Source: Pezizomycotina sp. ARF18 (Eukaryota; Ascomycota). From it: a DNA stretch of 64,000 nt. The notes under the pieces are model-generated. The model ran no database searches. It was not told where the DNA came from and saw nothing but the letters and a program-made list of their open reading frames with translations. Of the stretch, positions 1 through 64,000 are shown in pieces; the stretch's first letter is position 1, and each line of letters begins with the position of its first letter. The position numbers and the translations under genes were made by a program. The stretch covers positions 170,830 to 234,829 of the forward strand of contig AZLU01000027.1 of NCBI GenBank assembly GCA_002224055.1, given 5' to 3'.

Positions 1-107
1 AATCACCAAGTCACCTGCGTTTAGCGAATAAACACTATCCCCAGATAACTTCCTCTTCCCTCACCACGCCGTCTCATCTCATCTCGCCGAGAATCAATGT
101 TCCATTC

Positions 108-3100
108 ATGCCGCCGCACCGTTCAAATGGTTCGTTCATGAAGGCCTCGTCCTCGCAACCGCACACCATTAGTCAACACCAAGATCAGAATGCGAGCTTC
201 CGATCACCCCAACCTGTCCGCTCACACTCACATTCTATCATCTCCACTCCTCCTTCCGACTCAAACTTCGACGCCATATTTTCCGAAGAACGGGAATATG
301 GCAACCTGGTGTTAAGGTTTGGCTACCCCTAATCTATCCGCATTTTCTTTTTTATTTTTCTCTAGAGAGGACTAGGACGAGTCCGCTAACATATAGGAAC
401 AGAATACCCACGATCAAAGCAGTAGCCGCCCTCCCACAGATATGCACCTTATGACACTGTTAGTTTCCCCACAAACCTGACACTTTTGTCGTTCTTCCTA
501 TGTGTTCCTAATCTAATACTTCTTTCTGTGATCAAAGTGACGGTAGCGGGTTGTCGGTACAGACGGCCACGGCCGCTGAGCAAAGCGGCCCAACCGATGA
601 CGACGACGATTTTGAAATCATCCCCAGCGCAAACGAGATCATGAACGATAAGAGGTTGCAATCGTTAACAAAAAGCCCTAGGACACCCTCTCCTGGATCG
701 TCGCCATCGTTAGGCCACTTTTCACAATCCACGCTTCCACCTTCTCCCCGGCCTCTGGCCCCAAGAGACCTGCGCCATTGAAATCCCGCGCTTTCCGGTC
801 ACCACAATTCCTGGTCACGTCAACACTTTCTTATTGCCCTCTTCGATACCGCACAGCAGCACCGCCGGTCTCCTTGCCGCGGACCTCGGTGATGGACTCC
901 ACAAAGTATTACCTCCTTTTATTAGCCCGGTCGAGAGCCCAATTCGGATGCTTTCTCCGGATAGGTTCTTGGGTTCCTCGACGCCGTCACCCAAGACTTT
1001 AGCTGCCGATATTCTTTTCGAAGGGAAAATGAAGGAGTGGGCGAATAGTCAGAACCTGGATGATTCGAACGAACATGTAGGAAGTGGCAGCGGGGTGGTA
1101 ACGCCTACAACCTCAATAATATCAGCAGCAAGCGCTACGGGGTCGACCAGGTCTCGTCGTGCCATCACAGAAGTCATCACTGACAGCAATTCGCGAAGTC
1201 GAAAATCAAGCCAGTCTCTTCGTATTTTCAAAGAAATAAATCCGCCGGAGGATCGAGAAAGGGCCAGGGAAAAGCGCGAGAGAGACAAGCTGCTGAATCG
1301 ATACAAAGAGAAAGAGAAAGATCAGAAGGATAAGGATCTCAAGAGAAGGCCCCACTACCCCCGCGAAGTTACAATCATGAAAAACGTCAGAGCAGCTTTG
1401 AGGTCAAAAAGCGCTCGATGTAGAAACAAAGGACAAGTTCACACCGTCTTCCAGTACTGTCGATTCTTCTTCTCTTGCTTCTCCCTTTGTTACTTCCAAG
1501 CACCATTCCGAGCATGGTGTACGTCTAGTTGACAAACCCGAGCAGCCGAAGCCTTTAAGCGCTCATGGCTCGTTGCTGGTCACTATGCAAGTATATCTCA
1601 TATTTCGCGTGCTCCTACATATGAACGTGATCATGCAAAATCCGTAGATACTCTTAGGATCCTGCAGCTTCGATCTGAAGCCAACCGACGCTTCTATCAG
1701 TTCTGTTCCCGCCGTATCCTCCAAAAATATTCCCCATCGTCCGATCAACCTGTCGAATCTAAGTCTGCTGCTGAGGTCCGTCGTCAATCGTTTCACCACG
1801 TTGGCGTTGATGAAGATGATGAATCATGCTCCACTACGCCAACACAAAAGTCTCCGATGCTGCATAATGGTCATATGGCGTCTCAGCGGCTTCTCAGGCC
1901 CCAGATTTCACCACTGCAAGGTTCAGGAGAGGGTTATTCCGACTCCTCATCTTCAGGAATGCAGGATGATGGACAAATGGACATAGAAGGGAGGCTTATG
2001 AAGGACTCGGATGATCAAGATGAAGAGGATGAGGAGGAGGAAGATGACGACGATTCCGAGAAGAACAGCTTTTTTCGGCGACATACATCCGCACAAGACT
2101 CCTAAACTCGACCAGTTTCATCTGCTGTACAGGATGGTGTCGACAGCGATGCATTTGATGCGGCAGAAATCAAACTTTCCGAACTAGACCTTGATCAAAC
2201 GCTAGATAAACACGGCTACAAAACGGAGACTCATCATTTCGAAGGTGAAAGTACCAACAAGGATGGTGAGAGTCTCAATTCGAGCTCACCTTTCATGGTG
2301 AAGTCGACCAGTCATCAAAGACAGCCAAGCATTACCATGACGGGGCACCGCTGAGATCCTTACTAATGACATCGTGCCCGGAGTCTCAGATCATGCGGTT
2401 GCTCAATCCGACGATGAGAATGCTACAGTCTTGCAGAGTGGCGCGGAAAGTACTGATGATTATGAATCTGGAATTGAGAGCCTTTCCAACTTTTCATCGG
2501 CGGCGTCTTCAAGGACAAGTTCAGAGAATGAGCTCTATGACTCCACCGACCAGGAATTCGACCTTGCTGGTTCCGATCAAGATATGACGCCGACCGCAAC
2601 ACCGACTTCAAATAACCATCATAAACCTAAGAGTTCTCGCGTGCATCATCGACACAGCCATCACCGTCACCAGCGCGTCGCATCTCAATCGATGAATAAG
2701 TCAGCGACCCAGCCTCTTGCTGAACCTCTGGTGCTGTTGAATTGAAGCCCTATAACCACCAAGTTGGCGGACACACAGCGCTGTACCGGTTTTCGAGAAG
2801 AGCCGTGTGTAAGAGTCTGAACAACAGAGAAAATGAGTTCTACGAAGCTATAGAGAGGACTCATGAGGAACTACTAAAATTCATGCCAAGGTATGTGTTG
2901 ACATCATGAAGTAATGTGTTTTCACCGGTTCTCAAAAAAAAAACCCCCCTTTTTTCAATGATGATTATATCTCGAATTAGTTATGTGACTATTCTAAACC
3001 CTCTTGATTAAAATGAAACAGATATATCGGAGTTCTCAACGTCACTTTTCGAAAGGGCCGAAGAAGAAGAAGAGCCGAAAAGATACCATGAACGGAGCCG

Positions 3101-5037
3101 TCAAGGAGAAATCACTATTCAATGGTCACGCGAATGACGACCTCTCCACGTCTGCCCTGATAAAATCGGAAGACGGCTCAACAGTCGACCAAACGTCCGC
3201 CGCACACAATTCAACATCAGTTCCAATGGTTCACAATAATAGCAGCATTGGTCCGACGCCGCTTCCACAGGTTGTCTTCGAGAACAACCGCCATATAATT
3301 CCCGAAAATCTCTTTCGGTTCTCGAGCAGCGCGCCTATCTTTGCATCCAAGTCCGCTCAGAAAGGGAGCGAAGATGATTCACCGCTGAAGGACCCTCGGC
3401 TACGTGATCTAGCAACGGAAGACGATCGTGAGGTGGTAGAGCAAAGAAACAGCAGCAGTAACAGTAGTCAAAAGAGAAATTACCCATCCTGGGGAGCGAC
3501 TACCGTAAATCGCAAGCTGCAGGAACAAGTGTTGCGGGAAGTTTTTGGGCCGCCATTGCACCAACGCCACCACCACCACCACCACCATCAGAGTTGCAGC
3601 CACGCGCATAGTAGAACCCGATCGTCAACACTGAGTTGTCGACACCACAGGAATAGTGACCCCCACAGGAGCAATACGGATTACGGACACTCAAAGATCG
3701 AAACGCCAGTTAAGAAACGGTTATCGAGGAGGACTCCGGGCGGAAGTATGCTAGCAGTACAATCTTCGCGTGTACAAATCTTGTGAGGAGAGTCATGATG
3801 GCGGCAGCGAGGACCAACCATCCAATTGCAAGGAAGGTAGTACGCTTAACGCTCGGGCCAGATCCGTTGGAGGGGTTTCCCGCTTCAAGGAGGGTGGAAC
3901 GCGTCCTCGCACGGCCAGTAATTCTGTTTTCAAGGCTGCAGAATGCTTTCCTTACGCCTGAGGACGATGGATATGGCGGTGATCGGGAGGATGAAGTGTT
4001 TACCTTTGATGACTCCGATGACTTGAAGAAGACAGGTGGTACCGGATGAACAAATTGCCATGGCTCGAAAGATGTGCTAGCCGCCGAGCAGTGACAGTCC
4101 CGTCGTCACCAGCGCTCTGGCCGAAGCATGATGACACGCCGGTTGAAAGTCGACCTCTTACGCCAACGATGACGGCCAAAAAGATGAAAAGAAGGCGGTG
4201 CCGGAAACCATACCTGATACTGTAAACGAGGAAAGCCGCTTGGCCAACGATGTTGATGCTGATCCAGAGGCAACACCTATGCTACCAGGGCCTATGGTGA
4301 ACATCGAGCCTCCTGTGCTGCAACCCCCAGTGGAGCGTGTTGAGAAATTTTGCTCCTCGAGGATCTCACAGCCGGCATGAAACACCCTTGCGTGCTTGAC
4401 TTGAAGATGGCACTCGGCAGTACGGCTTGGATGCGGACGAGAACAAGAAGGCATCTCAAAGGCGCAAATGCAAACTGACGACGTCTCGTGACCTGGGTGT
4501 CCGCGTCTGCGGTATGCAGGTTTGGAATGCGAAGAAGAACGGTTACCATTTTGAAGACAAATATAAAGGCCGGGATCTCAAAGCGGGTCCTGAATTTCAG
4601 AATGCTCTTTATCGGTTCTTGCACGACGGTGAGAATCCTAAGAGCGTGCTCCGCTATATACCGACAATTTTAGACAAGCTGAAGGCCCTCGAAGCGATCA
4701 TCCGACAACTGCCAGGTTATCGATTCTACGCCAGTAGTCTCTTGATGTTGTACGACGCCGGCGACCACTCTAAACCAATCGACATGCGCATTGTTGATTT
4801 TGCCAACTGTGTTACAGACGAAGATTTGCCATCCACGGTCAAGTGCCCTCCGAAAGATCGACATGGAATTGATCGCGGTTATCTGCGCGGTCTTCGTGCT
4901 CTGCGTATATACTTACGCGGATCATGAAAGATGTCATGGATGAAGAACCAGAGCAGAGGGGAGACGTTATTGTTTTCGGTCGTGCTCATGGTTTGGAGGA
5001 GGTTCGGATGTCGGACGAAGGAGAAGTCTCAACCTGA
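108..5037 (+). CDS. KCS1: Inositol hexakisphosphate (diphosphoinositol) kinase, Kcs1 family
   Basis: Kinase of the IPK family that makes inositol pyrophosphates from IP6. The N-terminal part is a long Ser/Thr-rich, locally acidic low-complexity region. The Kcs1 block [17 protein letters not shown] and [11 protein letters not shown] lies at about 2760-2870. A GT-AG intron at 2891-3021 joins KFMPR to [10 protein letters not shown] linker with a short His run (about 3570) follows. The catalytic PxxxDxKxG motif is seen as PCVLDLKM at 4386-4409, and the C-terminal signature SSLLMLYD...DMRIVDFAN lies at 4733-4809. The GTRQYG that normally follows DLKM is readable only one base out of frame, as if a G were missing from a GGG at 4409. 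Several other frame changes lie in the N-terminal half and one near 4910. The last frame ends ...[10 protein letters not shown]... at TGA 5035-5037. The start is a best guess because the gene sits at the left edge. A first intron near 320-540 is likely. Family assignment is firm. Confidence 0.88.
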
Positions 5038-7219
5038 GTGACCCAGATGCCGTCCAAAGAAGGGTCCAAGAAAATGGAAAGAGGGGAGAGAAAAAAACAT
5101 ACAGGAATGCTGCGTTTGGAACAAGCTTATATGCACGAAAATATTTATCGTTTATTTACTTGTCCTTATTTCTTTAAACTGTATATCCCTTATATTTTGC
5201 TACTCAAAATTCGCTCCTTTTATTGATTGGTGTCTGTATTCTTGCATTATTGCCTTTTCGGTTCCACTTCTTGTACAGGGTTTTGGGCAACTTTTTTTTT
5301 CTTTCTTTCTAACCTCTTTGCTTCAAATTTTTTTTGTTATCCTTTGTGTTGACCAAGTTCACTCCTCTCTTTTGCTTTTTGTCGGCTCCTGTGTTCCTCC
5401 TTCCTTTCCCTTCCCTTACGGTCATACTATAAATCTATATAAATTTGTTCTTGATTTATTTCCTTTCAAGATTCCCTACTGTAGCCTTTTATTCCTTTTC
5501 CGTTGCCTTTTCCTTTCCAAATATATCATATCCATTCCGATCCCTATTATTTGGCTGGACGAATGCGATGATTTTTACGTTTGAAAATTTTTATTCTTTC
5601 TTTTTTTTCTTGGTTTTCGCTTTCTTTGATTGCTGTAGTTGCAGTTAGTACCGCTTACATTACTTTACAAGTACTCCATATACTTACAGGAGTTCTCTGG
5701 CTGTAATATGTTTAGCACTATCTGTCCTGTTATCGATCACGATCCGGTCCCGTTCGCATGTTCTGACGCAGAATGTTATCAAGCCCATGTTATTGTCTTA
5801 CGTTGCTACCGTATGCCTATATAGAGCTGATTGCCAGCTTAACCTTTCTACCTACTTCAGCATGATACACGATACTAGCGCTTGTTAGTAATTTTACGTA
5901 ATATATACGTGCCCAAATTTTATCTTATCCAATTTACTCATTAACATTATTATATAAATGTGCTCTCGAGGCTCGTGTAAGTTATAGGTATCGTTTATAA
6001 ATCGCAAGGTTAGAATTCGAGGATGTATATCTAATCTAATTTATAGTTTCTAGCTACGATATTCTTTAGAAGCACCTTGCCCCTTTGGAGAGTGACAATT
6101 CAGTGGAATCTAACTGAGAACCTATCCGGATGGGCGATCTGAATATACACGTAGCATTAGATGACCAAGATATGCTACGCTCGTTGATACGTGCGGTCCG
6201 AGTTTTAATTTTTATGTATGTATTCTTGAAACTTCCAAAGTTGTTTTCATTGAGCGATGATAATTGAAAAAATATTTAGATAAACACTAGCACAGTAGAT
6301 ACTACTACTTCTCACCTACGCAGGACTAAAAAGATGATTATAATTATAATTATTTATTCTTAGTTTATTGTTTTTGTTTTGTTTTGTTTTGTTTTGTTTT
6401 GTTTTATTTTATTTTATTTTATTTTATTTTATTTTATTTTATTTTATTTTATTTTATTTTATTTATTTTATTTTATTTTTTTATTTTATTTTATTTTATT
6501 TTATTTTATTTTATTTTTTTATTTTATTTTATTTTATTTTTTTATTTTATTTTATTTTATTTTATTTTGTTTTATTTATTTTTTTTATTTTGTTTTATTT
6601 TATTTTATTTTATTTTATTTTATTTTATTTTATTTTATTTTATTTTATTTTATTTTTTTCTGTATATTATCCAAATCAAATCAAAAATAAAGCCAAAGCC
6701 AACCAACCTCTCTTATCAACGCTACTAAGTATTTCATCAATCAAACTCCATCCGTTTTTTTTTTTTTTTTCCCAACCCCCACCGTTTTACTTCTCCCGCA
6801 TCTCATCTCATCTCATCCATCAATCTATCGATCTAACATTTATTTTATCTGTCAGGCGCCATCGAACAGTCCTTATTTACAATAAAATACATAGATAGAA
6901 GGCAAAGAAAAGGGGAAAACTACAGACCTTTCCTCAGTCCCGCTTTATTCGTTTAGATCCAAAAGGTTCGGCTCTTTAGCAAGCGATTCGGACGCCAAGC
7001 CCTTTTTCTTCAGTCTTTCCTGCACCTCACTTTAAACCCAATCCCCTTTCAACCTTATATACTAAAAAAAAAAAAAAAAAAACACTTCCGCATTCTCAAC
7101 CTTTTTTTCATTTTCACTTCCTGGCCAAACACCTTTGTCTAACTTCTTAGGAATCTCAATCCTTATTCAAACATTATAGCAGAAAAAAGAAGTTAGTTAA
7201 AAAAAAAACTAGCAACACC
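5038..7219. other. Intergenic region between KCS1 and TAF10
   Basis: No gene is supported here. The first 600 bases after the KCS1 stop are T-rich, as expected of a 3' UTR. The middle is AT-rich without a plausible reading frame. A pentanucleotide microsatellite occupies about 6369-6657. From about 6740 onward there are T-rich and CT-rich stretches and an A18-type run near 7065. These lead into the A-rich sequence just before the TAF10 ATG, so this end is probably the TAF10 promoter and leader. Confidence 0.6.
6369..6657. repeat. TTTTG/TTTTA pentanucleotide microsatellite
   Basis: About 290 bases of near-perfect pentamer repeat: a short TTTTG block at the left end followed by some 50 TTTTA-type units, interrupted by a few units of four, six or seven bases. 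All three + frames stay open through it and translate to Phe/Leu/Tyr-rich strings. This is a repeat artefact and not a protein. Confidence 0.97.
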
Positions 7220-8454
7220 ATGTCGGACGCGCCGCAACCGAACATCGCTGCCTCCACCAACCCATCTGCTCCTCCATCATCCTCCGCCGCTTCCACAGCG
7301 ACAGCCGCAGCTCCCGCCGCGTCATCACAGCAGCAGCAACAACAACCATCGTCTTCATCGTCCGCACTCCCCAACACAGCGCCAAATTCAAGTGCGACGC
7401 TATCATCGACACAACCTCTCTCCCAGCAGCCGCAACCGCAATCACAACAATCACAACAGCAGCAACAGTCGTCAGGCACAGCAACAGCGGCGACCGCAGC
7501 GGACCCGCTGGAAGGTGACGATATAGCTGACGCAGATGTAGACATGCTAAACCCTCCCCCAGGTCACGAGAACGTCCTCGACGAAGGCAACAAAGCGGAC
7601 GGCGGCGCTGATGCTGCGGACAAAGAAGGTGGTGAAAAGGACAAAGAGAAGGAAAAGGCGCCACCCGTGTTACCGGCCTAGGTATGGATGCCGGCGGCGC
7701 AGAGAACGAGCTGGCTGGTTTGGAGCTGAAAACAACGCGGAAGGATCGAAACTTGCGAGAGTTTTTGAACATGATGGACGAATACGCTCCCATTGTACGT
7801 TTTCCTTTTTGTTTTCCAATTTTTTTTTTCTCCGCACAGTTCGTGCCATGTAACGCAAGAGGAATACTGTTTTCGTGCAAGTTTTAAAGAAACCGACTAT
7901 TTTTTTTTTTTTTCGCTAATAGATTTGCTTTCATAGATACCCGACGCAGTGACGGACTACTACCTCGCCCTCGGCGGATTCGCCTCCAACGACCCCCGCA
8001 TCAAGCGCCTCCTCGCCCTCGCCACACAAAAGTTCATCGCAGACATCGCCGCCGACGCGTACCAGTACTCGCGGATCCGAACGTCGGCGTCGGGGGCATC
8101 GGCGTTCGCACCCGGCGGAGCGGGAGGCGGCGGTGTGGCTGGAGGAGCAGCCGGCGGTGGTGCAGGTGGCGGCATAAACTTCCTTACGGGATTCGGCGCG
8201 AGTAGCAGCAAAAAGGGCGGAAGGGTCGTGCTAACGATGGAGGACCTGACGGCTGCCGCGGCGGAGATTGGCGTTAACAGCAGGAGGCCTGAGTTTTACA
8301 GGTAAAGAGGGAATTGCGTTTTTTTTTTTTTTTTTTTTTCTTCTCTCCTTTTTCCATTTCTATCTCTCTCCAACAAATTGAGTTGTTATTGTTCTCGCAT
8401 TATAGAATGAGGTTGCTTAGTACACAGTCAAGGTCTTTAAAGCTGAAAAGATAG
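7220..8454 (+). CDS. TAF10: TFIID/SAGA subunit TAF10
   Basis: Histone-fold TBP-associated factor shared by TFIID and SAGA in the nucleus. The N-terminus (from ATG 7220) is a Ser/Ala/Gln/Pro-rich tail of about 150 residues with Gln runs. The conserved fold follows: [14 protein letters not shown], then an intron at 7795-7936 with a clean junction to [14 protein letters not shown]. Next come [17 protein letters not shown] and [10 protein letters not shown], a Gly/Ala-rich loop at about 8095-8180, then [19 protein letters not shown] second intron at 8302-8405 contains a T21 run. The last exon encodes [16 protein letters not shown], ending at TAG 8452-8454. The frame changes once near 7679, where an in-frame TAG interrupts the linker just before [12 protein letters not shown] read this as a one-base indel, not a second gene. 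Confidence 0.93.
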
Positions 8455-9350
8455 AAGCTGTAGTTCTTTCTCTTTCACTCTTTTCTTTCTTTTCTTTCCT
8501 TATTTTTCAACTATGGCGTTCGAAATGGAGGAAGCATAATAAATTTTTTCAGATTGTAAATATACTCTCGTGCCTTTGCCTATTTTCTACCGATTTTCTG
8601 GTTAAATCCCACATACTTCTCGCGCAGGGGTTAAAGTCGCTCTCGAAATGTATTGTTGATTACACAAATTACACATTACTAAATAGTTTATAAGTTGCAT
8701 TACAGGCGTAGTCGTCTTAATTTGCTCACAATAGGAAAAGAAAACAAAACAAGAAACAAAAAATTTAGTAGTTGGAGAGAGGTTTCATGTGTACGTTGAT
8801 ACTGGTATCTAGGAAAAATGTTCTGAGGTGCAAAGACTCCAAAAAAGAATAGCAAAAATTAAAGAAAAAAAAAAAAATGACAATCATCTCCTGGACAAAG
8901 TGTATATGTAACATACACGGAAGTATATAGTATACGCTTATGAAGTGTACCGAATTGAAAAAAAAAAAAAAAAAACGAAAGAACAGAGCGTTACCAGATT
9001 ACAGACAGCTAGAGACCCATACAATTTGATGCAAGCAAAATAGCAGAATGCTGTTTAAAACACGCCGCAAGAAATTGAACTATAAAAATGATTGCTCCGA
9101 TGAACGCCGCTAGAAATGTGAAAGTATCTCTGTATGTTGGTGATGTTGAAAGATATGCCAGCCGTCTACTCATATATCTTATATGAAGAATGGAAACAAT
9201 TACGAGGCAAAAAGAATCTAAAATCCAAACAGCACATATCGTAGGGGGAAAAAAAATAATAATTAAACCACCCTTCTACTCTTCTATAGAAGAAAAAGAA
9301 AGAGTAATCCAAAATATCAATAAGATTTTAAACAACGATACCGCGCTGCT
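8455..9350. other. Convergent intergenic region TAF10/MCH1
   Basis: The 3' ends of the + strand TAF10 and the - strand MCH1 face each other here. The stretch is A-rich, with runs of 12-18 A near 8867 and 8958. I see no coding potential, only probable 3' UTR sequence. Confidence 0.5.
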
Positions 9351-11196
9351 TCAGCCGTTTCTACCCTTCCAGGCGAAAAGCCAAAGCAAGCAAGCGATGA
9401 AAACGGATCCTGCCATGACCCAAAACGTTGTGTTGTAGCAGCCGACGCCGTAGCAGGTTCCATCAGTGATTTCTGCCTGGTGGCTTCAGCGTCGTAGACA
9501 CGGGCAAAAAGAATCCCGTAGAAAGTTGCGCCAAGAGCGGGCATCATAGTAATGATACCTAGAGAAGAATAAAAAGAGTTAGTGAAAGATTCAAGGTGGA
9601 AATAGAAATAGGGAAAAAAAAATTTATTTCTAGACTTACCCCAGAAGGTAGAAAAGTTGTTGTGTCCCCAAATGCTGATAGTCACATTTGGCGCGAGGAG
9701 AATACGGCGCCATAAGCAATACCAATAGAACCTGAGACGATCCAAAAGAGGTAAGGGAACTGTTGTATAAGGCCGGTCGCCAGGGACAGATGCGCAATCG
9801 GCATGAAGAGAGCAAAGAAGATAATGAGTGTAACACGAGAGATGTGGAACGACTTGTTATCATCTTCAGATTCAGTCTCATCGGTATCCCTAGCTTCTTC
9901 GTTTGGTGGAGCAAAGTAATCGGAGACGAGGCCAGACGCGACGCGGGCAAAAGTCGAAGTAATCGCGATAATGGATACGTGAGTGGCCGGGTTTGACTCG
10001 TACTGCTCGGCCGAAACTCCGCCAGACATATCGGATTTGGTAGAATTAACAGAGTGGATCAGGCTACCCATGTTGGCAAGGAAAGCTTCCCCGGGCCCGT
10101 AATGAGAAAGAAACCCATCGCGAATAACCACATTGTCGGATCCTTCAAAAAGGCTCGCGTCTCAGCATTAATGTGGCGGTTGTCTACCGTTTCAGGGGTA
10201 GGTTTCGGGGAAGATGAACCGGAGGATGTCCTCTCAATGTTATCGGTAGCACCGTAAGCAAGAGTACCGGACGAGTCGTCATCATTTGAAGCAGCAGCAG
10301 CAGGTGCCAAAAGGGGAACCCTCTCGTTTGAAAAGATCTCCTCGTTATCCTCTGGGAGGATCCTCAAGCCGAACATACCCAAGCCACCAACACCCAGGAG
10401 CAAGAAAGCAAAGAATATGAACAGTCGCTTAACATCGATCTCAGTACCTCCGGAATCCCCGATGCCGCCGTCCCTTTCATAAAGAACGAGTTCGCAATCT
10501 GGCTAAGCCAGAAACTGCTCAGGCCAAACGCCGCGATCGGAAGGGCCAGAGCCAGCCCCTCCGCTTCGTAAATTTTTGGCGCAGGTACTAACACCGCTAA
10601 GGTACATAGACGATGTACCAGCACCGATAAGGAGAAATGCGGAGACCATGACGCCATAGGTCATTTTATTCGCATACGCGTACGAGGCTATCAGGTAACC
10701 AGGCGTGAAGAAGAGCGTAGACACCAAGGACAGGCGAGCTGGCCCGTATCGGTCACAAAAGTACCCAAATAAGGGGACCGGCAGGTACATCCCCAACTCT
10801 CCACCGATAGCGACGGCATTAATCTGCATCTGGTTGTAGTGTAGCCTTTTCTGGAAAATCGGAGCGTAAAGTGAGAAAAGGAGGAAAGAACCGGCCGATA
10901 GACTATTTTTGTATTCCTAGGTCAGCCAACTCAGAACTGATTTAAAATAAAAATAACTAAGTATATTTTTGAGGGTATCTCTCACCAGCTAATCATCGCA
11001 GACACGAACGCTACCCGTCTCATCCACTTATTCTTCCCTTCGCGTTTGGAGATGAGATGCTCGCTGATGGAGCCGGTCATGGACGACATCGAATCTCCAT
11101 CGGCCGCAACGCTTTCTCTCCGTATCAGCTTCGAATACCCTTTGGGAACATTCTTGACGCCGAGTCCGCGGTTTTACTGGTACTTTGAACCGTCAT
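9351..11196 (-). CDS. MCH1: Mch1-like major facilitator transporter
   Basis: Polytopic MFS carrier of the fungal Mch1 (monocarboxylate-transporter-like) group; substrate unknown. Matching blocks in order: a short N-terminus ending RRVAFVSAMIS, then an 83-base intron (10903-10985), LSAGSFLLFSLYAPIFQKR, MQINAVAIGGELGMYLPVPLFG with CDRYGPARLS, and GLALALPIAAFGLSSFW. A cytoplasmic acidic loop, KDPTMWLFAMGFFLITGPGE and THVSIIAITSTFARVASGLVSD follow. After a second intron (9559-9639) the tail is IITMMPALGATFYGI and CYNTTFWVMAGS, ending at TGA 9351-9353. At least six frame changes separate these blocks. Two look like single-base losses: a G in GPGE (about 10090) and a C before LAPNVT (about 9698). 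The start ATG at 11196 is inferred. The family is clear; the transported compound cannot be told from sequence. Confidence 0.88.
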
Positions 11197-12383: not shown

Positions 12384-12414
<31 letters not shown>

Positions 12415-13044: not shown

Positions 13045-14942
13045 TCATGATTCCACATCCACAGACAGGCCACGGAGGCCAACGTAGACGTCTGTGCCCC
13101 ATCCGTAGAGACTTTCCACCTTGAGATCCCCGCCGAAGAATTGAGCATAGCTCCTGCTAAGTCCCATGCCGAATCCCAAACCAGCGATCGTAGAGTTTTC
13201 AATGTCACCAAGCGTAGAAGATATTGCGTCCATACCATCGGCACCGGAATCGGTGTACGCCGAGAAGGAATTGCCCGACGGTCCGGATCCAGAAAATGAA
13301 GACTGCGGGTTGAATGTCGTGAACGAATAAGAGAAGATATTGGGTAAATGCTCGGGGCTGATACCGCCTCCCGGTCGCAAATCCGGATCGTGACGGCTTT
13401 CGTTTCCTCCGAGGGTTGAATGCCTTCAGAATCACTACCGTTGCCATTGTTGCCGTTACCATCACCGGCGCTTCTGTTGTTATCGTTGCTATTTCCAGAG
13501 CTCGAAGAAGACCCGCCGAAGCCGCCACCAAAGCCGCTGCCGAAGGGGTTGTTGGCGAACCACTTGCCGCCGTCGCCTTGCCGTTTAGTTTCCGGCTTGA
13601 CGACGTGCATGCGTTCATCGCCCCAGCGGCCATTCGTGCCCCGCCCGCCGTAGGACCCGGACGAGCCGCTTCCGCTCTTGCCACTCCGCTCTTGCCACTG
13701 GTGCTGCCGCCATTGTAACCGTCGACGTCGTCAATCTCGTCGGTCGTCGGTCGTCAATCATCTCACGAGCAGCGATGGTAACCCGTATGGGTATATCTGC
13801 CGTCCCATTCTCCACCGTCGCGCGGAACGCATTCTTGAGGAGCTCGGTCATGATGTATTCCAAGTGCACGGGCACGTACGCGAACGTCGCGTCAGACATG
13901 CCGTCGATCTCAACCTTCGGCCGGACGCCGTAGCGCAGGTCGCAAATGTCCCCGACGAACTCGGCCGCGGAAGCTATAATCTTGCTTGGGTTTAACCGCG
14001 TGTCGATGGTACCGATGTACGTGCTGTCCCACCGCTCGACGTCTGGTCTCCCGCTCGAAGTCATCGGGGCGGGTGTCACGACGGCCCTCGCTTTCGGTTC
14101 GCAGCCACCGGAGCTCCCTCCTGCTCCTGCAGCTGCTGCGCGATGGTCGATTCGGACGCCTGGTGGAGGCCAGGTGCTGCTCTGCCAGGAGCCTGGTTCC
14201 TATCCGGGCCCGCAGGTGCTCGTCGAGGAACGACGTCGTTTCCTCGGCGCTGACGTACCTCCTGCATTCCAAAAGCCTCTCGCCAGCGTGGGGATAGTGT
14301 TGCTGTGGATGTCTACGACCTCGGCCAGAACGTCGTTGAACCTGGCTTCCTCCTTCAGGTTCGAGGGGAAATCGGATTGGGGGAAGCTCAAGAGCAGCCT
14401 GAGCGAGTGGAGGTAGTTGTTGTATATCGAAGAAATGTGTGGATTCGATACGACGATGTAAGGTAGGTTTCGGAGAGACAGGACGCGCCTTGCGAGGCGG
14501 ATAGGGAGGACGCGGAGGGTGAATGCGGCTGAAGATAGGAGATGCGCAGGTGGTAGGGGCGGTCGGCCGAAGCGTACGAGGTCTGTTAATGTGAGAGGTT
14601 GAAGCGGTAACGTCGCGAGTTGCGCGATTTCTTGATCAAAGGCTGGCGTCGACGATCGGAGAAAAGCCGGGCTGCCTCTAGGTGTTGCTGTCGGTGCTGC
14701 AGGGCAGCCGCAGAAGATGCAGCAGCTGGCGCAGTGCTCAGCCTCCTCCCGCCCCAAGAATTTCTTACCCTGATGCCATATCTCCATAGATTTCCGGCCC
14801 CCTTACCGCGTAACTGCAGCTGCCCCCATTCGCACGACGGCAGCGACCTGCACGTACACCTCAAGGACATTAAACGACACTCTTTTCTTATTCTGCTCCT
14901 AATTCGATCGAAGAATCCGTTACACTTTGAGAGTGTTTCCAA
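13045..14942 (-). CDS. Mitochondrial pyruvate/branched-chain dehydrogenase kinase (PDK/BCKDK family)
   Basis: GHKL-type protein kinase that inactivates a mitochondrial 2-oxoacid dehydrogenase complex by phosphorylating E1. The N-terminus is Arg-rich and acid-poor (NLWRYGIRVRNSWGGRRLST...), like a mitochondrial presequence. Then come EIAQLATLPLQPLTLTDLVRFGRPP, LPIRLARRVLSLRNLPYIV, and ECRRYVSAEETTSFLDEHL. The HVEYI-type block is seen as VPVHLEYIMTELLKNAFRATVE, which carries the N-box Asn. The G1 box reads GGGISPEHLPNIFSYSFTTF and the G2 box GLGFGMGLSRSYAQFFGGDL. The stop is at 13045. A single-base loss in a G run at 13370-13372 puts the frame out inside the ICDRGGG motif, and several other frame changes lie upstream. 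A Ser/Gly-rich insert sits near 13440-13540. The start is uncertain. It could be the Pkp2-type paralogue, and I cannot separate PDK from BCKDK by eye. Confidence 0.85.
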
Positions 14943-16226: not shown

Positions 16227-16258
<32 letters not shown>

Positions 16259-22187: not shown

Positions 22188-22189
<2 letters not shown>

Positions 22190-28280: not shown

Positions 28281-28873
28281 TTACTCCTCCGACTTGCCCT
28301 TTCCTTTTGCTGCAACCTTGCCGGCCTTTCCTATCTCTCCAGGATAGCCTCACGGTCCTTGTCGAGCTTTGGTTTCGTGATGATAACGTTGGAAGCGGGT
28401 ATGCCGACAGGAACTGACTGACCGTTGACCTTCTCGCGACGACACGTTCAACGTGGATGACGTACTTTAGGCGGTAGACGGACGTAACCTTTCCTTCACG
28501 GCCCTTGTAGGAGCCACGGGTGATAACGACCTCGTCGTCTTTGCGGATCGGGAGCGCGTTGACCTATTTTTTTTTTTTTAAAAAAAAAAACCCCCCATCC
28601 TCCACTGTCAGATCACCATTACATCGAATTCAATAAATACCAGCAGCGGAATTGCGCGTACATTGTACTTGTCTTTCAGCTCCTTCGACAGAGGCGCGGA
28701 CATGATAACCCGGCGTTGAGACGAAGGGGCACCAAAGTGCGACTTTCTCGATTTGCGACGAGACGCATGAAGAGCTGTAGATATTTCGCGACAAAAGGTC
28801 AGCAAAAGAAGACTCGCCGCTCCTGAACAAGAGAAATAGAAAGCGTAAATATACATGTGTTGACTTTGACCAT
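28281..28873 (-). CDS. RPL26: Cytosolic 60S ribosomal protein uL24 (RPL26)
   Basis: Large-subunit ribosomal protein next to the exit tunnel. Exon 1 encodes MVKVNT (ATG 28871-28873). The acceptor CTACAG joins it to [19 protein letters not shown] and [20 protein letters not shown] second intron, starting GTACGC and containing a T/A/C homopolymer tract near 28564-28595, joins to [12 protein letters not shown], then [23 protein letters not shown]. The remainder ([41 protein letters not shown] 28281-28283) is readable only through two one-base losses: a C near 28438 and an A near 28335. Length after joining is normal for the family. The gene is single-copy in this window, with no second copy to compensate. 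Confidence 0.92.
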
Positions 28874-36717: not shown

Positions 36718-39409
36718 TTAATGCATCAAACATCCGTTCTTCTTACTACTGCAAAGGTCCGACGTGCCTAAACGTATCCTTACAGAACTAGCTTCAGGCT
36801 GCGTCTGATCCCCGCTAATCTTGCCGAAGAAAGTCTCGGCCATCCACTCGTACAAACCTTTCGCCATCCGTAATGCGCCAAAATGAAACATCAACTTCCG
36901 AATTATCGGGAACATACAGTGGAGTCTAGAATGCAACGATTTCATATTAGTCTTTGTGGTCTGCCTCAAGCTAATAAGAGAAAGGGGCAAAAGAGCATGT
37001 GATCCGACGTACCTTTAGCGGGAAATATATAGGAAACCAACTAGTCATATCTTTACTCTTCTCATCTATCTGATCTGGCCGGGTACTGAGCTCCACCTTA
37101 ACGCCAGTCGTCGGGCTTTCGTAGAGAATACTCTCGAAGTAGCCCGCAATGCCGTGGATGACACCCCTGTTGCGAATTTTGAACGTGCCTTTCGACTCAC
37201 GCTCGTTGTGCTCGTTCTTGTTGCCGTCGCTCCGGTCCTGGAGTACTACGATCTCCTGCGGCAATGGATGCCTGAACTCCCACGCGCACTTTATGTCCGG
37301 ATTGTCATCCTCGTCCCTCGAAAGATGCTCGAAAGCCGTAAGCATCACCACCCAGGGACACTCGAGGATGTCCGCAGCCATGGAATTGTGGGCCGTGGTC
37401 AAGCGCGACATCAAGTCGCCGTGGATCTTCGGCGTCAATATCGGAGAGTAATGCGCCGTATAAGTCGTAGGTATGGAGATACCCGTGTCTGGCTTGAGGA
37501 CCCTCTGGACGCCGTCGAGGCATTCTGGTGAGAGCTCGTTGTCGCCGAAAGAGCCCAGCAGCTCCGAGACTATGATGTCGATCTGCTGCGGCGGATTCCA
37601 GTCCCTCATATCTGACTTGACGACGGTAACGATGCCGCCCCACGTGTCACGGTTGTGACGCAGTAATGTTACGTAGGCATTGGGGTTCTTCTCAACGGCA
37701 TAGAGCGTTACGGGCATGCCGGTAGCAGCTGAAGCGTTTATACAGCGAGACACTAACGGTCCTCGACCGGCGCCAACGACAGCAATAACCCTACAAGACC
37801 ATCAGCGTTTGTGTCCGCGAATATATCTCAATTGTTTCTAGTCTCAAGTAGAGAGTGAGGTGAACATGGCTGAAGGAACTCACGTACGTTGATGTCTCGC
37901 CGGCCTTCATGCGGTCGTCCAGCGCAAATTGAACGGCTTTCTCATACTGGTTGTATTTGACAGGGTCCTTTTCAAACACTTCGTAAGTCACGCTCTCTAG
38001 ATTATGAGCGAGCGGCTGCAATGGCGCTTGTAGGTAGTCTTGATAGCCGGCTCCGTATAATTCCACAGTTGACGGCGGGGGCAGGTTTCGATGAAGGTGG
38101 CGGATATAGAACAGGTACGACTGCGGATCGTCCCTACGTTTAGTGGTTCCATGAGGCAACCGGGGTCCTGGTGCTAAACTCGGGAAGTTTGCAGCGTAAT
38201 CCGGACTCATTGGGTCCAGCATTGTGGGGCTCAACGGTTCATCTTTCACGAGGGATTCCGCGAAGTTGGGGAAGACAGTGAGGAATTCTGCGCATGCCTG
38301 GTTTCACAGAGAAATACGTATGGGCGGAGCTTCGTATACTTTGCGAGCAGAGCTTGACTCGGTTTTGTCATGACGGGGAAGCCCTTAGCATTGAGTACGA
38401 AGGATGACGAAGGTATCATGAGCACTTTGATCGGCTCCGCGTACCACCTGTCCAGGACGAAAGAAGGTGGTAATTTGAGGGGGATCTGCAAGGCTAAAAG
38501 ATCGAAAAAGAAAAAGAAAAATGAACGTAAATATCAGATCAAGGTGAAAGTTCATAAGGAAGAAAAAGATAATCTGTCTTATTGAAAGGCCAGCACATAC
38601 CCACAGAGAGCCTTAGATTGTAATTGCAACTGTCCTTATGCTGTTCCACGCATCCCATGTTTCCAAATGATCTGGCAACGCCGTGTTTGCATCCGAGTTG
38701 AGCTTTGAGTCAGCTCCGAGGTGGAATTGCAAAAGCACGGAGAAGAAATTGGTCTTCGCCAGGCCGCCATTTATAGCTTGCGCGTATGCGGACAGGTCTC
38801 GGCCTTTTCCAGCAGGGCCTTGGACAACCACCATGCTAAAGCCACAGAATGCAGCATACGCGAGCTCGTGGTGTAAAACTTGACGATGCACCGTCGCTGT
38901 TAAAGGATCCGGAGAGTCGAGCTCAAGCCACGAGGAGGTGAATGCCACACATTGCGGTATGTAAGCTGTAGGATGAACATTGACTTCCTCGACGTCGAGT
39001 CCAGGAACGGTAATGCGATCTAGAGAGGCACCGCGCGCTAGCGACACCTGCTCCTCTACACGTTCCTTGAAATTGATATTCGTTATATAAGTAGATATAA
39101 TGTCGTACTAAATAAACCAAAGCAGGCTCAGAGAAATTGCCTTGTTAGCTTCACTTCTTTTATACTCTTTGACAAACGACAACAGATAAATAAATAAGCA
39201 AGTAAAAGGCACACGTTTTTGAGATTAACAAGTAGATTCAAAGAGGAAAGGCCCGGCCGAGCCTCCGTATGTACCTACACCAGTAGTATGAGCTGCATTG
39301 ACTATACCATCGGTCACTGCCTGATTTGGAGCTGGTAGATGTTCTCCGATGCAATAGAGGGAAGCTGACGTCGAAGCATCAGACTGCCCGATGATTGGGC
39401 AGCATCCAT
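36718..39409 (-). CDS. PRMT5: Type II protein arginine methyltransferase PRMT5 (Skb1/Hsl7)
   Basis: SAM-dependent enzyme that makes symmetric dimethylarginine on histones, Sm proteins and cell-cycle regulators. ATG 39407-39409 starts MDAAQSSG. The TIM-barrel-type N-terminal domain has SLYCIGEHLPAPNQAVTDG, an intron to YDIISTYITNINFKERVEEQ, and IPQCVAFTSSWLELDSPDP. PSFVLDRWYAEPIKVLMIPSSSF comes next, then QSYLFYIRHLHRNLPPPSTVE. The methyltransferase core shows VVGAGRGPLVSR (SAM motif I) and VEKNPNAYVTLLRHN. The double-E loop is SELLGSFGDNELSPECLDG (about 37500-37560). The C-terminal barrel runs through HGIAGYFESILYESP and the end RLGTSDLCSSKKNGCLMH, stop 36718-36720. Several frame changes occur, e.g. 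near 36860 and 39385. Active-site residues look intact. Confidence 0.92.
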
Positions 39410-45441: not shown

Positions 45442-46847
45442 TTATGTGCTTGCTGCTGCCTCTTTAGTGTTTATCTGCTCGCTATATTTTTCTTTCTCGT
45501 CCGAGTAGTCCTCGACTTTCATGTCCTTCAGTCCTAAATCTTCCTCCTGCTCCTCCGTCCTCTCGTAGTCCTCGATGGTCATGTTCGGATCCGGATCGGG
45601 AGCGTAAAGGTTCTGCAGGTGGCTTGCGGCTAGGGGATCCTCCAAGATGACGGTAAACTGAATCTTAGCTTCCGCCGCGCTCTTCAGCCTTTCAAGGAAC
45701 TTGGCCCAGTTCGCCTTCTTCTCCGCTTCCATGCTATCCCCGGATTCCTGGATGAAGCGACCTTCCAGCTCGTCGGGACCTGCATGAGCAACCTTCCAGC
45801 GTCGTGAAGCGGCCGCCTAGCGTTCCGGGGTTAAGCTCGAGGTTGATTTCCGGTACGCTCAACGAGCACGTTTCGGACTTGAGGATATCGCGGGCGAGGT
45901 CGTCGGCGTCGGCTACTTTGAGCGTTATACGGCGCCCCTTAGAAGGGACGGCACCACCGGTTTTAACCTCGTTGCTCCTATAACCGCAGGCGTCGCAAAC
46001 GGTACTCATGATAACGACCTCCTTGAAGTGCGGTATGTCTACCATCTTCATGTGGGTGTCGCAGTGGTGGGTGCAGCTAGGGCAGGTAGCGGGGAAAGTG
46101 TAGACTTCGTCACGCTTGATTTCGCTATAATCATCATTGTCATCGTCATTCTTCGCCGCTCCATCCTCGCCGTCGTCCCCAGTGAGGGCTAGCTCCTCAT
46201 TCTGCTCTTGACTCCGCTTATAATCCGTCCTTACTAGTTTACCCTTCGGGTCGTCCGGCGAGGGCTCGATCCAGCTGTTTCCCGCAGGATCGTCGATGGA
46301 TACATCCCAGGGGAACTCTTTACCCTCGAGCATCTCGTTTCCTTTCTTCAAAAACTCCTCAATCTTCGCCACGAGTCCGTATCGATGTCTTTCCGCTTGT
46401 CCTGCTCCATGGACAGATCCTCGAGCACGTTCGACAGTAAACCTTCCACCGTGGTCAGCTTGCCCTTCTGCGCGGGTATCTCAAGGGAGAGTTTAGGTAT
46501 CGAGACCACGCATGTCTCTGACTTGACGACCTGCCTTGAAAGGTCCTGCACCGTCTCCACCGTGAACTTGTACTTGCAGCCCTTAATCTGTATCTCGCTT
46601 GCCGTTTGGACCTCCGTGTTCTTGAAACCGCAGGAAGGCACTCGAACGACATGAGGACTATGTCCCTGAAGAAAGGTATCGTTGTGAGAAGGAGCTTCGT
46701 AACGCCGTCTTCGTGGCAGTTCATGCAGAGCGACGTGATCTCCTCGACTACTTTCCCTTGATCGTCATCTTCGGTGGATTTGTCAACGGTTTCGGCTGCC
46801 TCCCTGACGGGCTTGAAGAGGTCCTTGTTCTTTTCGTCCGATGGCAT
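45442..46847 (-). CDS. ZPR1: Zinc finger protein ZPR1
   Basis: Eukaryotic ZPR1, a dual zinc-finger protein linked to eEF1A folding and nuclear signalling. ATG is at 46847. The first ZPR1 module has the C4 finger [22 protein letters not shown]...SFEC..CGFKN, then [20 protein letters not shown] and [10 protein letters not shown]. The second module repeats the plan: [64 protein letters not shown] and GGRFTTLEG. The C-terminus is acidic ([21 protein letters not shown]) and ends KEAAAST. Three frame changes (about 46640, 46375 and 45770) split it into four frames. Each falls inside otherwise contiguous conserved sequence, so these are one-base indels, not introns. Intronless otherwise. Confidence 0.93.
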
Positions 46848-50759: not shown

Positions 50760-50918
50760 TATATAATTCCAACAACTTCACACAAAAAAGTATTCGTTTT
50801 ACAAACCCTACAAGCTCGACTCCTTGGTATTGTCTCTTTCTCACCTTTTCTTCTTTTTTTATGGCTGTAAACAAGAATTTAGAATAATTACATAAAATTG
50901 AAAACGAGCAAATATCCC

Positions 50919-52796
50919 TTAATTGCCTCCACCGGGCCACCAAGGAGCGCAAATCTCCTGACAATGCTTGGACCAATCTCGTCGTACTCTTGTTTGGTAT
51001 GGCAATAGCTTCGGAACTCTGGCGTCTGGCCAAAAGACTTCCTCCGAACCAAGGGCCGTGCCTCTGCCTCTTGTGGGTGATGACCTGAACCTCAAGACCA
51101 CCAGATTTCATATGTGACCCGACATGACCTCGGAGCGCTTGATGCGGGCGTCGACCATGTGTCGGATATCACGCTGAAGGCGGCGTCCGAAGTCCTTGAA
51201 CAGTGTTGAACCTCCAGAAAGGACGATATTCTGTGAAAGAAATGAAAGAGATTAGATAAAGTTACAAAAGTATATACAGCGACCTGGCGAATAAAATACC
51301 TTGTAGAGGCCTCTCCGGACATCGATAGGCGAGGACTGGATGACACCATCAACCACTTCGGGGAGTGGGGTCAAAAAGTCGCTGGAGTAAATTTCGGGAT
51401 TGAAGAAGATTTCCGGCGCCAAAACCGCTCGTAACCAACGTCCACAGACACCTTCCTCCCAGCACCCTGATCGGCCAGGTACTTCTGGAACCTCTCGGGT
51501 TCCCGGTCGAAGCGGCTGAACTCTTTGACGATATCGGGGCAACGTAGCAGAATTCCTCCTTGATGCTCTCGGCGGTTTTCAATGAGCTGTCGGGTTCACC
51601 GCGGTCTCGAAGTAAGGACTGAACAAAATAGGTGATGTCGCGACCGGCAATAGGTATGGATCTGATCGACGATCCAATTACGTAGCCCTCAGCGACAGGG
51701 ATGACGTGCGTCACACCGTCTCCGGAGTCGATAACAGTTCCGTCAATGACCGATCCTGACCTTCGAAGACGTCCACGACGCTGCCAGAGCTAGCACTGCC
51801 TGAACAGCGATGTAGAGACCTGCGCAGTTGAAAGACTCAAACATGATTTCGGCTGTGCTTTCACGATTCTCTGGAGGGTTCATTGGCTAGCATGACAGAG
51901 ATATCCAACATAGATTAGCAACAAGAAATATTTGCGCTCGCCGTACTCTGGGGATAGATGGTTCACTGTACCGGTTCGGTAAGGAGGAAGTAGTGATCTT
52001 CTGGTTCGACGCGGAGATACTTGAAGATAGAGCTTTGCCAGAAACGTTCCATGTGGTCCTTCATAAAGATTAGAATTATTTCACTCACAAAACTCCTTTT
52101 TAAGGCAAATTTGGAGACTTTGGTATCGGGACCTACCCAGTTCTCTATTTGACCGTGTCTAATTGGATAGTGAATCCCGTATCCTACTCGCAATGGCATT
52201 CAAATTTAGCAACGCAAAGCCAAATAAAATTTCCTACAACTCAAAATGTAAACCGGAAACTAACCAGGTCCTTGCGCTTGTGCTAATGCTTCATCGCCGA
52301 TGAAAAAGTCCAAGTCTTCTGTGCCTCGCTTCCCGGAGAGATGACCGCCCGGACCGGCACCGCCAGTGAGAAAGCTTGGCTTCTGAGCAACCGCAGGCCG
52401 GCCACTTCCAGTACCTCCGGCGCCCGCAGCAGGGCCCTTGGTCGCTATTGCCGTGGGAAATACGAAAGAAGGCGCATCGTTGCCGGCGAAACCTGAGAGG
52501 AACCGTTTAGTATAAGAACTTCTGTAGTTGGTTATTTGGCAAAGGTGTTGACGCTGACGCTGACGTACCTAGTTTCGAGTATCCAGTACCGCTACGAGCC
52601 GTGAACCGAAAACAAACATTAGTGATGGAAACTCGTTGCTGTTTTAAGATCTCAAGTCGTTCAAAACTTCGAAGGAATGTCTGGTAGGGTTGTCTCGAGC
52701 ACGAAGCCATTGCTGGTGGAGGGTATAGAACGGAAGAGCGGGTGGAGGGGCAGAAACGCACTTGTCAATAACAACGGCCGGAGTCTGGTTCGCCAT
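50919..52796 (-). CDS. ARP3: Actin-related protein 3 (Arp2/3 complex)
   Basis: Core nucleating subunit of the Arp2/3 complex that builds branched actin. ATG 52794-52796 gives [11 protein letters not shown], then an intron to GTGYSKLG, a further intron, and [19 protein letters not shown]. The Gly/Pro-rich loop typical of ascomycete Arp3 precedes [17 protein letters not shown]. Then come [15 protein letters not shown], an intron, and [52 protein letters not shown] and [21 protein letters not shown] with [19 protein letters not shown] follow. Next are [22 protein letters not shown] and [13 protein letters not shown], an intron, [14 protein letters not shown]-type sequence, [17 protein letters not shown] and the C-terminal LGGPGGN-like end at TTA 50919-50921. 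Many frame changes separate these blocks, but every block of the family is present. Confidence 0.93.
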
Positions 52797-56043: not shown

Positions 56044-57361
56044 CTACGGCGCGGACTTTCTGCAGCGCTGTTCGTCCCTGTACCGGTGCCATTGGCAACG
56101 GCCAGTTTCTTTTCTTCTTTGCCTTTTTCCGAACAGCAGGTTTGCCTTGGTGTCCAAGGAGGTTACGTCGAGCTTATTCCCACAAGTCGTACAAACGGCG
56201 CCAGACGGCGGAGCGCAGAAGACTATCGAGGTTTGGCAAGCCATTTTTAGTACCTTTGCTTCATTCTTGTTTCACCTTGACTACTCGCCCCCCCTTGGTT
56301 CAGATAATCATAGGGAAGATTGTACTTACTACTGAGGCATATCGAGCATACGAATCCAAAGTCAAGGACTTTCTTGTGGCAAAAACAGGCCGATCGAAAG
56401 TCCACGTCGACCTGGGTTGGCAATATTAGAGCTTGCCGGGAGTTGAAATCTGGGAGGAACGACACCATGAGATACTGCAAAAACCTTCGGGTGCTCCAGC
56501 GACATGTATATGCCGCCTGTTGCGTCGGAAGCTTGCTGCAGAAGCTCGTGTCGCCGCGTATTTTGGCAACATCTATGGGGATTTTCTAGAAACAAACATT
56601 CAGTAAGCTGAAAACGTCGAGATTCGTGAACCGACGCAAAAAGCAGCCAAAGGAATTCCGCCATACCATCTTCTGCGCAGCGAAGATACTGTTCATAACA
56701 GGAATATACTGCATGGAAAGGTCCCCGCTGACGCTGACGATCAGTATCTTCGCGTGCATCTCCAGCTTCGAATCGTCGTCCTTTTCCTTCGCCGCGTCGT
56801 CTGTGGCGATCTGTTCTTTCCCTTTGCTGAAGCACATCTTGTTGATGTAACTCAGGGCCATCGACAGTGCCCCCGATATGCTCGAGCTGTTGGCGTCTAT
56901 CTTGCCGTTCCTCAAGTCCGTGCTGTCCACTAGCTTCCGCATCGAGTCGGCAACCTCATCCTCAATCACCCGGAACACACGGTACTTGTTCGCGTCCCGC
57001 AGCGGGTCGACCTCCACGTCTGTTTCTGCTTCGCTTTCTTCTTCTCCTTATCGCCACCACTGCCTCCGGATGCATCGCTTTTCGACAGCGCCGAGGGCGG
57101 GACGCGGAACCTAGGGTCGGGGGGGCTGAGGAACACGGCCTTATCGACGTGGCTACCGATTACCGCGGCTTTATTCGCGTGGCTGAAGGCGAGATGGGCG
57201 TTGATGAAGATGAGGATGTCGGCGACGGCCTTCTGGAACGGCAGGATGTCCTTCAGGTGCAGCCAAGCGGACGGGTTCGTGTCGAAGACGACTACTAGGA
57301 GGGACGGCAGGTCCATCGACACCTTCGGGTTATAGTGGTCGGTGCCGTCGACGTTGTCCAT
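56044..57361 (-). CDS. TFB4: TFIIH core subunit Tfb4 (p34)
   Basis: vWA-fold subunit of general transcription and repair factor TFIIH. ATG 57361 gives MDNVDGTDHYNPKVS. Next are PSLLVVVFDTNPSAWLHL, ADILIFINAHLAFSHANKAAVIGSH, RVIEDEVADSMRKLVDST, SISGALSMALSYINKM, and LIVSVSGDLSMQYIPVMNSIFAAQK. After an intron: KIPIDVAKIRGDTSFLQQASDATGG, then LPDFNSRQALILPTQVDVDFRSACFCHKK and the C4 finger CFCHKK...FVCSICLS...IFCAPP...CTTCGNKL. The annotated end (56044) follows the frame of the finger. A one-base shift would instead give a Lys-rich tail (KPAVRKKAKKK) like other ascomycete Tfb4 proteins and a stop near 55990. About four frame changes occur. Confidence 0.9.
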
Positions 57362-60925: not shown

Positions 60926-61136
60926 CTTAAAAAAGATCCGGGAAAAAAAGAAAAAAAGAAAAGAAGCTTAAACAGGGAAGGATTTTTGGCGTGGTGTAAA
61001 ATTAAAATTCGCTGTTGAGGAGGTCCCAAATTTAAAATTCCTCATCCCGACCTTCAACTCCGCAATTTTTTATAGTTAAGCTCCTTCTCAGCCCAAACTC
61101 ACAGATAGCTAGAATATCACGACATTCCGCCGATCA

Positions 61137-62473: not shown

Positions 62474-62583
62474 TCCTTCGTCACAGTTCACGTTACTTCA
62501 TGCCTTTATAGCGATTCTACAGGAAGGATATATTTCTGGGAAAATAAATCGCTGGGTATGAGCGGTACCGGATTATTCAGTTT

Positions 62584-64000
62584 CTAGCTAAGCTTCTTCA
62601 AGGCTTCAACGGCAGTACTAGAATATCCTCCGATTTCGACTTCTGAATTATAGATTTCAAAACATCAACTCCCCCCGCCTCTTTGATCTGTCGACACCCT
62701 TTTGTCCGCCGCCGCTCGCTACGTTCAGAATGCAGATAACGCCCCTGTGCGTCAGCTCCGCGTTGTCGGACGAGACCATCTCGAGCAGCGTCGATACGCC
62801 TCGCTCCTTCTCCAGGACTGCAGCCGCAGCGGCATCCCACTCCGTAAGCATTGCGAGAGCACCACCTGCAGCTCTTCTAGTCGCAAAGTCGTCAGCATTC
62901 GCGAGCGCTATCAGTATGTGCATCCGGTGCAGTGCTTGCTTGGAGCCGTCCGCAAATTTAGATACGCAAGTCGGAGATAACATCAGGTTGCATACCAGCT
63001 CCATCGCAGCCCGCTGAATCATGTCGTTCTGGGCGAGCAGGAGGTCCTCAACCAGTGGCCAGCCGAGCCGTATGATGAGATCGCGGGCTGAATCAGTAGT
63101 AGATGCTAGGTTTGTGAGCGCTAATAGCGACTCAAAGAGAGGGAGTAGGTCCGGTAGTCGGCAGTGGAACTTTGTATTGCATGCGCAAGTCCCAGAAGCG
63201 GCGCTATGGCGGACGCCAGAGGCAAAGAGGAGGCACCGAAGACATGTGCGGGGTTGATGGAGATGAGAATGCGTGCCAGAGCGTGTGGAGCTGTTTGCAA
63301 AATTTCCTTTTGGATGTCAGACCGTTTGTCTTCTTTTACGGACGCTGCGGAACTATAGTATTGTAGGAGCAGTTTGACGCCGCCTTGTTGTGCGATAATG
63401 CCTCGGTGCGAAGGGGTTTTGGATAGAGAATTCAATATGCGACACGTAGAGTCAATGATACTGGTAGATGTTGTTTTCCCAATGGCAACCAAGACGGTGA
63501 CTAGCCCGGCGTCAAGGAGACGTTTGCATCTTTGCGTGACCTTGGGGGGTTCATCGAGAGGGTCTATTTCTTCAGCCTGCTTGTTGGAATGAGGGTTTGC
63601 GTAATTTTTAAGTTGTTCATCTTTTTCTGCTCTTCCGAAAGCGCTCTAGGGTAGTTTGTGAGGTTGCAAAGCACCGTAAGTGCTCCGTAGACGGCAGCTG
63701 GCGATTGACTCCTGAGAGTTGCCAAGACGCTCTTCAAAATAGCTTCGTTCTTGACTATTTCTCCTTAACCGCAGTGTTCAACGAGGCGTATGCGAGACCT
63801 TCTATCGAAGCCTGTATCGATTCGTCGTCCTTCTTTGTCAAAATAAGGTCTCCAAAAACGCTTGCTAGAGCTTCCATCTCCCTCGCACCGCTGTCCTCTG
63901 AAGTGCCCTCTTTTCTACCTTCAGTAGCAGATAGTTCGGCCGTTCCCCTAAAATCTTAGCTAAAACCACTGCTGCGGTGCTTGTCCATCTCCGCGGCGCT
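62584..64000 (-). CDS. She4/UNC-45 myosin chaperone (partial, 5' end outside window)
   Basis: ARM-repeat protein of the UNC-45/Cro1/She4 family that folds and assembles myosin motors. Only the C-terminal part is in the window; it runs off the right edge. Seen: DSTCRILNSLSKTPSHRGIIAQQGGVKLLLQYYSS, APHALARILISINPAHVFG, SSLPLASAIAPLLGLA, TNLASTTDSARDLIIRLGWPLVEDLLL. Then MIQRAAMELVCNLMLSPTCVSKFAD, DDFATRRAAGGALAMLTEWDAAAAAVL, and ELTHRGVICILNVAS. The end reads EALKKLS with TAG at 62584-62586. These are the helix-turn-helix ARM units and the conserved central-domain block PAHVFG of UNC-45 proteins. Frame changes lie near 62640, 62700, 63100 and 63600. It is tail-to-tail with the coiled-coil gene, 110 bases apart. 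Confidence 0.85.

Follow-up and report, generated by a model that had tools for sequence, protein, structure and literature searches.

Frame breaks in conserved genes of a draft assembly are best explained by deletion-type consensus error

Conserved genes of the window and their reading frames

The window, meaning the whole 64-kb stretch of DNA analyzed here, corresponds to positions 170830-234829 of contig C27, within an assembly of 46,361,250 bases in 408 contigs. Its GC content is 41-51% per 4 kb, it contains no N letters, and nothing was found on it by ARAGORN or by Rfam at the gathering score. The genes of the window look fungal from their sequences. Queries built from joined pieces had as their best solved homologues, for ARP3, RPL26, TFB4 and two CCT genes, chains that we take to be fungal. 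Diverged simple repeats of TTTTA type lie at 6307-6710, 12262-12471 and 43217-43284, in inverted orientation at 43217. The genes and domains most closely considered are listed below by their positions in the window.

4350..4915, plus strand: IPK domain of KCS1/IP6K, with a frame change between 4409 and 4445
7937..8302, plus strand: TAF10 domain, in one open frame with no break
13130..14560 (ends approximate), minus strand: PDK/BCKDK-type mitochondrial kinase, aligned to PDB 8f5f_A
28334..28700, minus strand: part of the RPL26 (uL24) gene, aligned to PDB 7r81_a1
37040..38130 (ends approximate), minus strand: C-terminal half of PRMT5, aligned to PDB 9dod_A
45541..46740 (ends approximate), minus strand: ZPR1, aligned to PDB 2qkd_A
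50939..52500 (ends approximate), minus strand: ARP3, with four introns (GT-AG-only model)
56480..57330 (ends approximate), minus strand: TFB4 (TFIIH p34), aligned to PDB 4pn7_A

Frame breaks were called with a frame-aware aligner that fits a protein sequence to DNA in steps of whole codons, GT-AG introns or frame shifts of one or two bases. ARP3, for which the reference was actin-related protein 3 (PDB 3dwl_A, presumably an S. pombe chain; 308 of 398 aligned codons identical), carries six one-base losses in 1,239 coding nt, near 51756, 51742, 51542, 51420, 51109 and 51029. ZPR1 has two one-base losses (near 46636 and 46379) and one gain, an insertion-type break near 45785, in 1,199 coding nt, and the jr-ZPR1 profile matches its region in two overlapping frames. 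In RPL26, which has an intron at 28564-28661, a single one-base loss was called near 28439 in 269 coding nt, with the Ribosomal_L26 and KOW matches spread over three frames. The search for a PRMT5 reference gave none at an E value of 1e-90, and at 1e-40 only the C-terminal half was aligned (158 of 307 codons identical; intron at 37789-37880), with one one-base loss near 37781 in 1,016 nt. The PDK-type kinase (124 of 310 codons identical to its reference) received four calls in 1,008 nt, namely two losses, one two-base loss and one gain, with the losses placed near 14270 and 13372 and less certain breaks near 13791 and 13398; its BCDHK_Adom3 profile matches in two overlapping frames. Three calls were made in 706 nt of TFB4 (102 of 231 codons identical), comprising one loss, one two-base loss and one gain, the insertion-type call lying near 56994 and the losses near 56539 and 56484, and the Tfb4 profile matches there in three frames. 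For KCS1/IP6K, positions 2-31 of the IPK profile match in one frame and positions 22-189 in the next, the two matches overlapping in the DNA, whereas the TAF10 domain is matched over positions 15-102 of 102 (102.1 bits) in a single frame.

A first-pass annotation had proposed that nearly every conserved gene of the window is broken, and this holds for all seven of the window genes tested (six by alignment and KCS1/IP6K by profile arithmetic) but not for the TAF10 domain, which is whole. When 15 window regions were searched with Pfam in three frames, the same family was found in more than one frame in eight, in one frame only in six (chorismate mutase, TRM5/TYW2, ARMC5-like, MFS, asparaginase-like and Mre11) and in none in the SSP120 region, with the caveat that a frame change can by itself be an intron. 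The same annotation had assigned breaks to particular sites, and these fared unevenly: of the 17 or more genes it counted as broken it named eight, and the tools support three of these (KCS1 near 4409, PDK near 13370, and RPL26), and at MCH1 near 9698 and SSP120 near 58680 the break looks right in the three-frame translation. At the sites in Rdx, ALG2 and uS19m, the gaps between frames are compatible with introns, or one frame only was matched.

Pooled over the six aligned window genes, CCT4 on contig C24 and CCT3 on contig C139, all with solved homologues as references, the alignments contain 26 frame breaks in 8,164 coding nt, or 3.2 per kb, and all eight genes are broken. These genes were picked for their conservation and solved relatives after broken frames had been seen, so the sample is not random. 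The claim that the changes are mostly losses is borne out by 23 of the 26 calls, with the remaining three of insertion type. Two of these three sit in the two least similar genes, TFB4 (44% codon identity) and the PDK-type kinase (40%), which fall below the range simulated and whose calls are weaker. Without these two genes, 19 calls remain in 6,450 nt, made up of 17 one-base losses, one two-base loss and one insertion-type call.

The aligner was controlled with simulated versions of ARP3, CCT4, CCT3 and ZPR1 that contained introns and had 46-77% identity. Clean simulated genes gave no calls in 24 runs covering 30,825 coding nt, and when 0.4% of bases were dropped (163 drops, introns included) the calls were 111 one-base, 8 two-base and 2 insertion-type. 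The aligner thus makes few false calls and rarely reads a loss as a gain. Prokaryotic chaperonins had been considered as a control for the aligner, but no relative was confirmed and the simulation was used instead.

Breaks on other contigs and in untranslated genes

Every conserved family checked on other contigs carries breaks. By alignment, CCT4 has five losses in 1,303 nt, and CCT3 has two losses and one two-base loss in 1,424 nt. The whole assembly was also searched by frame for helicase C, Cpn60/TCP1 and HSP70 families, and the step in the DNA between neighboring matches was compared with the step in the profile. Of 61 neighboring pairs, 25 have steps more than 12 bases apart, where an intron is possible, and were set aside, which left 36 usable junctions. 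All 36 are out of frame, 26 at -1 mod 3 (binomial p = 0.006) and 10 at -2 or +1 mod 3. Because the search tends to fuse matches that share a frame, a lack of in-frame pairs is to be expected and carries no weight. In exact terms, the step difference is -1 at 21 junctions, -2 at seven and +1 at none. Usable junctions came from seven of eight chaperonin places and five of the seven HSP70 places listed, with six junctions within 1.78 kb in the HSP70 gene on C49. The short helicase domain gave four, and many of its 54 matches cover most of the domain in one frame.

Frame breaks are what pseudogenes usually show, and real gene decay could take the form of a dying region, a degenerate nucleus, or broken copies accompanied by working genes elsewhere. 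Breaks confined to one region or to spare copies would then be expected, but chaperonin, HSP70 and helicase genes elsewhere are also broken, and the breaks are found on many contigs, including those in CCT3, CCT4 and the five HSP70 genes with usable junctions. The sequence between breaks is moreover conserved, as in the codons that ARP3 shares with its solved homologue, and no second copy was found of the PRMT5 region, the only gene so tested. Decay is therefore a very improbable cause.

The sign of the shift bears on pervasive programmed ribosomal frameshifting, by which the breaks would be read through as they are in Euplotes. A genome with many non-triplet genes does exist in Euplotes, as described in the parts of three reports considered here (PMC10235951, PMC5011710, PMC4759687), and the two cases are alike in that many genes are spread over more than one frame. 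However, the +1 shifts described in those parts skip an extra base, so the sign is opposite to that of the 23 calls of 26 that are missing bases here. An extra base would be the signature of such shifts, and the insertion-type calls (3 of 26) and exact +1 junctions (0 of 36) give little sign of it. Unlike what those parts describe for Euplotes, genes that are never translated are affected here too, and tRNA and 5S rRNA genes that lose bases are not accounted for by frameshifting, which is considered extremely improbable.

Untranslated genes provide a view of the losses that is independent of reading frame. The search for 5S rRNA gave at least 15 copies (47 of 1,990 candidates scored), all 15 of which were aligned. 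Relative to the majority sequence, deletions affect 21 positions in the 15 listed copies, insertions 5 and substitutions 105; most of the substitutions set apart a second 5S type and a handful of diverged copies. If bases were dropped, deletions without substitutions would be predicted in otherwise near-identical copies, and the seven copies closest to the consensus, none with more than two substitutions, have seven deletions, no insertions and four substitutions. Some 5S copies may be real pseudogenes, those on C17, C77 and C39 being diverged enough, which is a point in favor of decay at these places. The two 5S rRNA types coexist in the assembly and differ at about 11 positions, and C36 holds 5 of the 15 listed copies, in both orientations. 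Base loss is thus indifferent to coding function, with tRNA and 5S rRNA genes affected like protein genes.

Two mitochondrial-type contigs

Contig C50 (231,088 bases) has many tRNA matches as well as cox1 matches and is mitochondrial in type, with a unit length of about 215 kb. Of its five matches to the cox1 profile, four follow one another in order between about 136 kb and 206 kb and the fifth is at 92 kb, which suggests a cox1 gene that is very long and intron-rich, or rearranged. Positions 1-15728 of the contig recur at 215220-231088 (about 15.7 kb), as expected of a circular molecule assembled past its start, so that one stretch of DNA is represented by two copies. Their alignment spans 16,001 columns and contains 45 mismatches and 320 gap openings, and 263 of the 320 indel events are of one base. 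Over the first part of the overlap (1-4000), the shorter of the two is the start copy 156 times and the end copy 29 times, whereas in positions 12001-15728 the end copy is shorter 54 times and the start copy 21 times (Fisher p = 5e-18 for shorter copy against overlap position, within this one contig). Each copy is therefore worse than the other toward its own end of the contig, an edge effect that falling read support at contig ends predicts and biology does not. The central 8 kb of the overlap (4001-12000) contains 60 indel events, or about 3.75 per kb in each copy, a rate similar to that of the conserved genes (3.2 per kb). Sorted by base, the one-base differences are 118 T, 89 A, 42 G and 14 C, with complements uneven, and two-G runs are affected in 7.5% of cases compared with 3.2% for two-C runs.

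The tRNA genes of the overlap follow the same course. Of three pairs compared, one is identical and two differ, and tRNA-Trp is one base longer in one copy (71 nt) than in the other (70 nt). ARAGORN found tRNA-Leu in the end copy only and tRNA-Ile in the start copy only, so that each is absent from the copy nearer its own contig end.

These observations bear most directly on base-insertion RNA editing of nuclear transcripts, in which the genome would be without the bases and the cell would add them to RNA. This reading would fit the breaks, most of which are losses of one base from genes that are otherwise conserved. Insertional editing is known from Physarum mitochondria, in which extra bases make up about 4% of mRNA residues according to the part of the source considered (PMC5192504), and there, as here, single bases needed for an open frame are absent from the genes. 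The roughly 3 sites per kb seen here would be under a tenth of that density and, in contrast to the myxomycete mitochondrial editing described in that part, they affect nuclear as well as mitochondrial-type DNA and RNA genes as well as coding DNA. Editing leads one to expect DNA copies that agree in lacking a base, but in the C50 overlap they do not: a change made in RNA would leave both DNA copies of the molecule alike, and it could not tie the short copy to the distance from the contig end. The genome also holds 5S rRNA copies both with and without the bases. We know of no nuclear insertion editing in fungi. Editing is considered highly unlikely, and the earlier judgment that it is far less likely than sequencing error is upheld by the disagreement between the C50 copies. 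Real loss compensated by editing is excluded as the main cause for the doubled C50 region only, and is disfavored for nuclear protein genes. That some nuclear one-base losses beneath the errors are real and restored by fungal base-insertion editing has only the slightest probability.

Contig C257 (56,537 bases) offers a contrast with C50. It carries mitochondrial-type tRNAs, namely tRNA-Trp (tca; SeC in ARAGORN labelling) and tRNA-Ile (tat), together with an open GIY-YIG frame, at a sample GC of 32%, and a cox1 profile search gave no match on it. Two repeat copies on this contig, 37.3 kb apart (7000-11000 and 44300-48300), show no differences over 3,979 sampled bases. C257 is probably a second mitochondrial-type molecule, a circle of about 37.3 kb, for which a plasmid, a second mitochondrial chromosome, an internal repeat or DNA of another organism are candidate identities. 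A repeat without differences means that error is not uniform across the assembly, and high read depth on C257 would explain it.

Consensus error as the probable cause, and its meaning

The frame breaks are almost certainly consensus errors of deletion type in a draft, probably long-read, assembly, as far as can be judged from the DNA itself, because losses dominate, all kinds of DNA are affected and contig ends are worse. The proposal that sequencing error of this type is the simplest explanation is therefore strengthened, as the C50 molecule, assembled twice, disagrees with itself almost only by short indels, and similar losses occur in nuclear 5S rRNA, in a tRNA copy and in protein genes of other contigs. 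A search for a nuclear locus assembled twice found none, the PRMT5 region being the one region tested, and for nuclear protein genes the verdict rests on the matching rate and kind of breaks and on 5S rRNA. Insertion-type or two-base changes account for 3 of the 26 calls and 10 of the 36 junctions and go beyond plain one-base loss.

Under consensus error, the assembled sequence would be short of a base at roughly 3 places per kb, often in short runs of the same base, and errors would strike coding DNA, RNA genes and mitochondrial-type DNA equally. There is no plain collapse of long runs, since the window still contains A runs of up to 34 and T runs of up to 23. The cause may be low read depth or a lack of polishing, and the platform was probably PacBio CLR or an early nanopore chemistry. 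Indels of long reads tied to base runs are known to fragment genes, as set out in the Kastor study (PMC12007338). Features shared with the errors described there are short indels tied to base runs, prominent deletions and split conserved genes, but for one draft, Pss508, the errors that Kastor detected are given as less than 0.05% of the assembly, compared with about 3 per kb here (PMC12007338). Four exact TTAGGG units in a row occur nowhere in the whole assembly, either because telomeres are unassembled, or because they have another repeat, or because errors break the arrays. At the end of contig C382 the sequence is only a diverged repeat.

Altogether, the broken genes are best explained as an ordinary artefact rather than unusual biology, for which editing, frameshifting and decay are unneeded. 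Real breaks that the cell mended in its RNA or at the ribosome would be extraordinary, but the duplicate copies speak against them. The circular-overlap check works without reads and could screen other drafts. The genes are presumably intact in the organism, and the importance of the finding is limited to data quality: until this assembly is polished, any gene models, gene losses, pseudogene counts or new domains predicted from it will be unreliable.
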